Positions 36,023 to 37,183 of a stretch of 39,259 nucleotides of DNA are shown piece by piece. A program made the translations under genes and the position numbers. Each line of letters opens with the position of its first letter. The first letter of the stretch is position 1. The notes beneath the pieces are model-generated. The model was not told the origin of the DNA, ran no database searches, and saw nothing but the letters and a program-made list of their open reading frames with translations. This DNA is from Microcaldota archaeon (GTDB lineage Archaea; Micrarchaeota; Micrarchaeia; Micrarchaeales; CABMGC01): positions 1 through 39,259 of the forward strand of contig JAJZKO010000007.1 of the NCBI GenBank assembly GCA_021850805.1. Reading direction: 5' to 3'.

Positions 36023-36784
36023 ATGGAGCAGTCTGTACAGTATATGGAGAAACCAAAGGAATTGAAGCTTCAGCCTGAATTCTCCGATTCGCACTGCCAT
36101 CCTGACATATTCAAGGATCCCGGCAAGATGCTTCACGAGGCTCGCCAGTCAGGCGTGGGCACCATAATCGGCGCAGGCGGAAATACTGACAGCAATAACG
36201 CTATCGTAGAGATATGCGAAGCAAACGGCATCTTTGGTGTTATAGGCATTGATCCGTCTTCTAACTGCAAGGAAGATTCAATTAAAACAATAGAGGAAAA
36301 GATAAAGACTCACAGCAAGATAATAGGAATAGGCGAGATAGGGCTGGATTTCGTAAAGAGCAGCATAGAGGAAAACATGCAAAAATCAGTATTTTCATCA
36401 CAGCTCGAACTGGCTGAGAGGCTCGGGGTTCCTGTGGTAATACACTCAAGAGGCGCCATAGGGGCAGTCACGGAGATTCTTCAAGGATACAAATCAGTCC
36501 GTGCAATGTTCCACTTCTTCGAAGGCGACGAAGATGCCGCCATGTCTCTTGCTTCAAAAGGGCATGTGATATCATTTCCGCCTGCAAAGAGCACGAAGCG
36601 TATGCGCGTGGCAAAAGCCCTCCCAGTCAAGCATATAGCAATAGAGACGGATTCCCCTGTTGTGGGGGAATCTCCATCCGACGTTATCACGGTATTCGAG
36701 AGCATATCCGAAGCCAAGAACATTAATGTAGAGGAGCTTGCCGATACTGTCATAGATAACCTAAGGGAATTATTTTATATATGA
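36023..36784 (+). CDS. TatD-family metal-dependent hydrolase
   Basis: 253 residues. Metal-binding signatures are D22-S-H24-C-H26, E105 in G-E-I-G-L-D-F, H141 in V-I-H-S-R-G, H164 in M-F-H-F-F and D210 in I-E-T-D-S-P. TatD enzymes are TIM-barrel nucleases or phosphoesterases. The archaeal branch is often annotated as putative DNase, and its real substrate is uncertain. The first eight residues may be untranslated if M8 (M-E-K-P-K-E-L) is used. It is followed after 23 bp by a tRNA on the same strand. Confidence 0.9.
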   Translation: MEQSVQYMEKPKELKLQPEFSDSHCHPDIFKDPGKMLHEARQSGVGTIIGAGGNTDSNNAIVEICEANGIFGVIGIDPSSNCKEDSIKTIEEKIKTHSKIIGIGEIGLDFVKSSIEENMQKSVFSSQLELAERLGVPVVIHSRGAIGAVTEILQGYKSVRAMFHFFEGDEDAAMSLASKGHVISFPPAKSTKRMRVAKALPVKHIAIETDSPVVGESPSDVITVFESISEAKNINVEELADTVIDNLRELFYI

Positions 36785-36807: not shown

Positions 36808-36896
36808 GGGTCCGTAGCTCAGCTTGGATAGAGCGGCAGCCTTCTAAGCTGATGGTCGCGGGTTCAAATAAAATGTTGAAAATCCCGCCGGGCCCG
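36808..36896 (+). tRNA. tRNA-Arg (anticodon TCT) with a 14-nt insertion in the T loop
   Basis: The acceptor stem GGGTCCG (36808-36814) pairs with CGGGCCC (36889-36895) with one G-U, and discriminator G follows. The D stem GCTC/GAGC is at 36817-36820 and 36831-36834. The anticodon loop CTTCTAA is at 36841-36847, giving anticodon TCT at 36843-36845; the stem has one A-G mismatch at its base. The T stem GCGGG (36858-36862) pairs with CCCGC (36884-36888). The T loop is 21 nt instead of 7, so 14 nt must be removed to leave TTCAAAT. No CCA is encoded. It lies between the tatD-like and UPF0147 genes in the same direction. Confidence 0.93.
36869..36882 (+). other. Predicted tRNA intron at position 59/60 (T loop)
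   Basis: TTCAA (36863-36867) can pair with TTGAA (36876-36880), leaving a 3-nt bulge AAT (36881-36883) against the T stem and an 8-nt loop. This is a relaxed bulge-helix-loop, the kind cut by archaeal splicing endonucleases of broad specificity. Because AAAT is repeated at the two ends, the exact cut sites are ambiguous by 1-2 nt; the coordinates assume removal between nucleotides 59 and 60. Confidence 0.75.
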
Positions 36897-36904
36897 ATCG
36901 TCAA

Positions 36905-36910
36905 GGTGAT
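36905..36910 (+). promoter_or_regulatory. Ribosome-binding site that points to an ATA start
   Basis: GGTGAT matches the 3' end of archaeal 16S rRNA perfectly and stands 3 nt before the in-frame ATA at 36914, with no canonical start codon within reach. Confidence 0.55.
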
Positions 36911-36913
36911 TCG

Positions 36914-37183
36914 ATAAAAAACAACAAAGAATTCGACGAAACGATAAGCAAGGTAAAGCAGCAGATTGACCTTCTGGTGAATGACAACAGCGTTCCTAGG
37001 AATGTGAAGAATGCACTGGACGACGCCAAGAAGTCGCTGGATCAGACGAAAGACGCTTATTCTACCAGATCATCTTCTGCAACATACAAGATAGACGAGA
37101 TAAGCAACGACATAAACCTGCCGCCGTACGCAAGGACAATAATCTGGAACATACTTAGCATGCTTGAGTCGATAAAAGAGTAA
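36914..37183 (+). CDS. UPF0147 family protein, apparently with an ATA start
   Basis: About 89 residues. The C-terminal part S-V-P-R-N, then I-D-E-I-S-N-D-I-N-L-P-P-Y-A-R-T-I-I-W-N-I-L-S is diagnostic of the archaeal UPF0147 family, whose function is unknown. The first ordinary start is GTG at 36977, but family similarity continues upstream (K-V-K-Q-Q-I-D-L-L-V-N-D-N-S-V-P-R-N), so the GTG would cut off a conserved helix. No ATG, GTG or TTG exists in frame between the stop at 36869 and 36977. An ATA at 36914 lies 3 nt after a perfect GGTGAT Shine-Dalgarno (36905-36910). The alternatives are a base error in the sequence or genuine N-terminal loss. It follows the tRNA by 17 bp. Confidence 0.8.
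   Translation: MKNNKEFDETISKVKQQIDLLVNDNSVPRNVKNALDDAKKSLDQTKDAYSTRSSSATYKIDEISNDINLPPYARTIIWNILSMLESIKE

Follow-up and report, generated by a model that had tools for sequence, protein, structure and literature searches.

A 14-nt intron at position 59/60 in the T loop of an archaeal tRNA-Arg(TCT), very probably removed by a broad-specificity splicing endonuclease

Within the window, as we call the whole 39,259-nt stretch of DNA analysed here, one gene for tRNA-Arg(TCT) carries a T loop of 21 nt, which raises the question of whether the extra nucleotides are an intron that the organism's own splicing machinery could remove. Read directly from the sequence, the gene occupies positions 36808-36896 of the forward strand and specifies the tRNA for the arginine codon AGA. 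Its acceptor stem, GGGTCCG/CGGGCCC, forms seven of seven pairs with G-U counted, the D arm is GCTC/GAGC, and the T stem, GCGGG/CCCGC, closes a T arm that spans exactly 36858-36888 and has TTCAAATAAAATGTTGAAAAT as its loop; the discriminator is G, and CCA is not encoded. The initial annotation held that every arm folds well, which is true of the acceptor, D and T arms but not of the outermost anticodon-stem pair, 27-43, a G-A mismatch that is common to many orthologues. Deletion of 14 nt (36869-36882) leaves a 75-nt mature tRNA with the canonical T loop TTCAAAT. In the precursor, the T-arm minihelix consists of a 5-bp TTCAA/TTGAA helix, an 8-nt loop and a 3-nt AAT bulge on the 3' side, as had been described, and folds at -9.8 kcal/mol (z = -3.2); the structure at the boundary is of the relaxed (bulge-helix-loop) type, the inner helix being absent from the window's copy. 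Free-energy folding of the whole precursor leaves the T arm unchanged and does not return the D arm, an arm often lost when tRNAs are folded without tertiary contacts.

The features of the locus are collected in Table 1, together with further T-loop inserts of the same genome. The TATA-box-like sequence lies 27-35 nt ahead of the tRNA's first nucleotide, presumably a position that suits an archaeal promoter, and overlaps the end of the TatD-family gene. On the downstream side, the UPF0147 gene (window 36900-37183) begins without ATG, GTG or TTG and shows ATA where relatives have ATG; this ATA, which stands after a ribosome-binding-like GGTGAT that is the same in relatives, reflects either an error in the sequence or the use of a rare start codon. 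Many relatives from the same family have UPF0147-like sequence 3' of tRNA-Arg(TCT). A neighbouring DNA polymerase subunit has as its only named relative, at 53% identity, a protein from a metagenome bin labelled Marsarchaeota.

Table 1. Coordinates of the tRNA-Arg(TCT) locus in the window, and T-loop inserts elsewhere in the genome
Feature	Location	Strand	Basis or remark
TATA-box-like TTTTATATA	36773..36781	+	sequence read directly
5' exon, nucleotides 1-59, ending ...GCGGG TTCAAA	36808..36868	+	sequence, Rfam tRNA model; all orthologues parse alike
Anticodon TCT, anticodon loop CTTCTAA	36843..36845	+	sequence; orthologues keep it
TTCAA, 5' strand of the splicing helix	36863..36867	+	T-arm fold
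14-nt intron TAAAATGTTGAAAA, position 59/60	36869..36882	+	relatives compared, fold, sequence
Intron TGAA pairing with exon TTCA	36877-36880	+	last AA of the intron plus T60 form the 3' bulge
3' exon: T60, CCCGC, CGGGCCC, discriminator G	36883..36896	+	sequence
UPF0147 gene, direct downstream neighbour, outside the intron	36914..37183	+	frame 2 translation; Pfam PF03685, E = 9.8e-24
tRNA-Arg(CCT) T-loop insert, 13 nt	L073, contig C16		gene not listed by the Rfam tRNA search
tRNA-Leu(CAA) T-loop insert, 12 nt	L034, contig C4		missed by ARAGORN
tRNA-Ala(GGC) T-loop insert, 26 nt	L037, contig C20		missed by ARAGORN

Comparison with related genomes bears directly on the nature of the insert. With the 87-nt gene as query, matches were obtained in 58 of 59 genomes, the own genome and its relatives taken together. 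From the own genome, relatives and one named record, 49 Arg(TCT)/Arg(CCT) genes were parsed by T-stem and acceptor pairing, and all of them reduce to TTCAAAT once A59 and T60 are joined, with a fully paired acceptor stem. Inserts of 12-43 nt lie exactly at 59/60 in 42 of the 49, the window's gene included, and the other seven are intronless, with a plain TTCAAAT loop. As judged from these parsed genes, the relatives settle that the insert at 59/60 is an intron, and its occurrence at one shared place in 42 orthologous or paralogous genes, with seven lacking it, is not attributable to chance. Insert sequence and length diverge between genomes, but the end is kept, as TGAA-AA or a variant that can still pair. 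Immediately 5' of the 3' bulge, 29 of the 42 inserts have the four bases TGAA, and 37 pair there with exon TTCA at all four positions to give a 4-bp helix, where a random 4-mer would pair fully in about 1 in 64 cases, the related sequences not being independent of one another. Because the exon strand never varies, this pairing evidence is one-sided; the intron side reads TGAA, TGAG, TGGA or TGGG, and there are no compensatory changes. An inner helix of at least 2 bp is present in 30 of the 42 inserts (shuffles: mean 5.7, maximum 14), and in the longer ones it sits where the full bulge-helix-bulge motif has one, so that the inserts grade continuously from the full motif down to the window's minimal, relaxed form. 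The window's intron marks the short end of this series, yet 14 nt, initially thought to be near the lower limit, is a typical length that falls within a main class of 12-16 nt.

The gene escapes standard detection. ARAGORN reported no tRNA on the window and, even when anticodon-loop introns are allowed, still misses T-loop introns; the Rfam tRNA model gave only a distorted match (36808-36866, 30.8 bits). Failure of such finders to return the gene intact would suit a decayed copy, that is, a pseudogene with an insertion in its T loop, a reading that we nevertheless consider very improbable, given that the stems are intact, that this is the sole tRNA-Arg(TCT) in the assembly, that AGA and AGG are the chief arginine codons, and that dozens of genomes carry an insert at this very position while keeping the exon. 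Another intact tRNA-Arg(TCT), which the initial annotation had named, if the present copy were silent, as a finding that would speak against splicing, was looked for and not found in the assembly (882,516 bases in a 25-contig draft, 83.7% complete); because of that incompleteness, one could lie in the missing part. Since 475 of the 623 Arg codons across the main ORFs of the window are AGA or AGG and no intact tRNA-Arg(TCT) was found, a non-functional gene is unlikely, though the genome is incomplete. The matching tRNAs for AGA and AGG are both interrupted in this genome.

T-loop inserts occur in at least three further tRNA genes of the same genome, four genes being listed in all. Across the phylum, a strict pattern, GGTTCRAA-N4..34-TGAAAATCC, was found in 132 of 295 genomes and 67 of 125 genera, with up to six matches per genome (G015), these being counts of pattern matches, not all of them confirmed as tRNAs; the reversed-pattern control gave 0 among the matches listed. 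With that distribution and four genes in this genome, the rarity first ascribed to 59/60 introns does not hold in the lineage. A looser pattern, run on the own genome, gave 6 matches against 6 in its reversed control and was dropped as evidence. An assembly or binning artefact, for which the draft state of the genome (25 contigs, 83.7% complete) might be invoked, deserves hardly any credence, as tRNA-Arg(CCT), which lies on a different contig, has a like insert and so do many independent genomes, the neighbours TatD and UPF0147 are ordinary genes, and numerous relatives have UPF0147-like sequence after the tRNA.

Among the other tRNA genes of the genome, tRNA-Leu(TAA) has a D-loop insert of about 21 nt (L039, last ~110 bases). 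Introns at or close to the anticodon loop are found in several tRNAs, and two of these introns (L016, L017) are likewise about 14-15 nt long. The tRNA-Trp(CCA) gene (L040, 91-229), called Gly(ccc) by ARAGORN, has a long intron in its anticodon loop, within which there seem to be box C/D-like motifs of the sort already known from archaeal tRNA-Trp. Additionally, a tRNA-like gene (L038, 200-286) that ARAGORN calls Val(TAC) combines a leucine-like acceptor with a long variable arm and a 9-nt anticodon loop.

The initial annotation also implied a splicing endonuclease of broad specificity. A single splicing endonuclease gene is present in the assembly; its 435-aa ORF has two PF01974 stretches (catalytic-type domains) in one frame and PF02778 N-terminal domains, and comparison with 4fz2, the epsilon2 enzyme of ARMAN-2 (Ca. 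Micrarchaeum acidiphilum), places the three-unit single chain (alphaN-alpha-betaC) in this one ORF. The alignment covers 383 residues (E = 7.3e-153; 4fz2 residues 5-387) and runs from ORF residue 53 to the ORF end, whereas the called ORF differs from the ARMAN-2 enzyme by an N-terminal extension of ~50 residues, possibly a start-codon artefact. The match to the ARMAN-2 enzyme is the basis for regarding the organism as Micrarchaeum-like. The ARMAN endonuclease was reportedly first described by Fujishima in 2011. The catalytic triad Y236, H251 and K282 of 4fz2 is kept here as Y283, H299 and K330, and its ARMAN-loop Y160-K161 as Y208-K209; the roles of the catalytic Tyr/His/Lys and of the ARMAN-loop Tyr-Lys have been described (PMC6379350, PMC12397907), Tyr160 and Lys161 being needed for cutting by the ARMAN-2 enzyme (PMC12397907; PMC6379350). 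In vitro, that enzyme cuts both a bulge-helix-loop pre-tRNA-Cys and a bulge-helix-bulge pre-tRNA-Ile (PMC12397907). At the sequence level, the genome's enzyme belongs to the broad-specificity epsilon2 type of ARMAN-2, and the expectation of such an enzyme is supported because the type is published to cut bulge-helix-bulge as well as bulge-helix-loop introns; cutting of bulge-helix-loop substrates by the genome's own endonuclease is a prediction from the ARMAN-2 enzyme. A gene for RtcB ligase is also present (E = 7e-158). Were the insert never removed, the tRNA would have to work with a 21-nt loop on an enlarged T arm, and the minihelix is indeed stable by itself; however, an insert that ranges from 0 to 43 nt and diverges in sequence is at odds with a conserved functional loop, and the genome encodes an enzyme suited to removing it, which makes this reading as improbable as decay. 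An enlarged T loop would lose the T-loop/D-loop contacts of the L shape. A pseudogene, an unspliced enlarged loop and an assembly artefact were all weighed and rejected for the reasons given for each.

Splicing of a 59/60 intron, with epsilon2 cutting and RtcB joining, is in our judgement almost certainly the correct account as a whole route. We infer that tRNA-Arg(TCT) would be transcribed as an 89-nt precursor bearing the 14-nt intron between nucleotides 59 and 60, in which the T stem, a 4-5 bp helix TTCA(A)/(T)TGAA and the 3-nt AAT bulge would serve as a relaxed splicing motif, one with a single bulge and, on the opposite side, an open loop where the full motif has its second bulge and inner helix. 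The epsilon2-type endonuclease would cut after A59 and before T60, in each case between AA and T, once in the loop and once in the bulge, and the A/T repeats at the junction mean that cleavage shifted by one base or more could still yield TTCAAAT. RtcB would then join the exons, giving a tRNA of normal form whose T loop is TTCAAAT. Removal of the intron by the genome's broad-specificity enzyme is very probable, and the original reading of a relaxed bulge-helix-loop intron at 59/60 is supported by the relatives, by the failure to find a second intact copy in the assembly and by the epsilon2 endonuclease.

Broad-specificity endonucleases are known to remove non-canonical archaeal tRNA introns with relaxed motifs (reviewed in PMC6379350, PMC4033280), and both T-loop introns and bulge-helix-loop introns of archaeal tRNAs have been described (PMC6379350). 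The intron reported here resembles these in being short, in lying outside 37/38 in the T loop, in its one regular 3-nt bulge and its 4-bp helix beside the exon stem, and in the presence of a broad-type endonuclease in the genome; nothing essential differs, but here position 59/60 recurs in the Arg(TCT)/(CCT) pair throughout the lineage and the introns are very short. The 59/60 junction is likewise the splice site in the permuted tRNAs of Thermofilum pendens, which are split there within a bulge-helix-bulge motif (PMC3218864); in that system the tRNA halves are reversed, whereas the order here is normal and the intron lies in cis. Introns of this kind occur phylum-wide, so the present one is genuine and well supported, and adds a new member to a class already known. 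We think it rather unlikely that the very short 59/60 intron is a standing feature of the phylum's AGA/AGG tRNAs, as opposed to a scattered accident, and is selected for a benefit while its sequence and length turn over frequently; candidate benefits would be, for example, the blocking of integrases that attach at the tRNA 3' half, or the ordering of T-loop modification. Essential arginine tRNAs of these small archaea would need a splicing enzyme of broad specificity, and genes of this type can be overlooked by simple tRNA finders, so that genomes seem to lack key tRNAs. The orthologue series, with inserts from 0 to 43 nt, offers a natural substrate set for defining the minimal structure that the epsilon2 enzyme needs.
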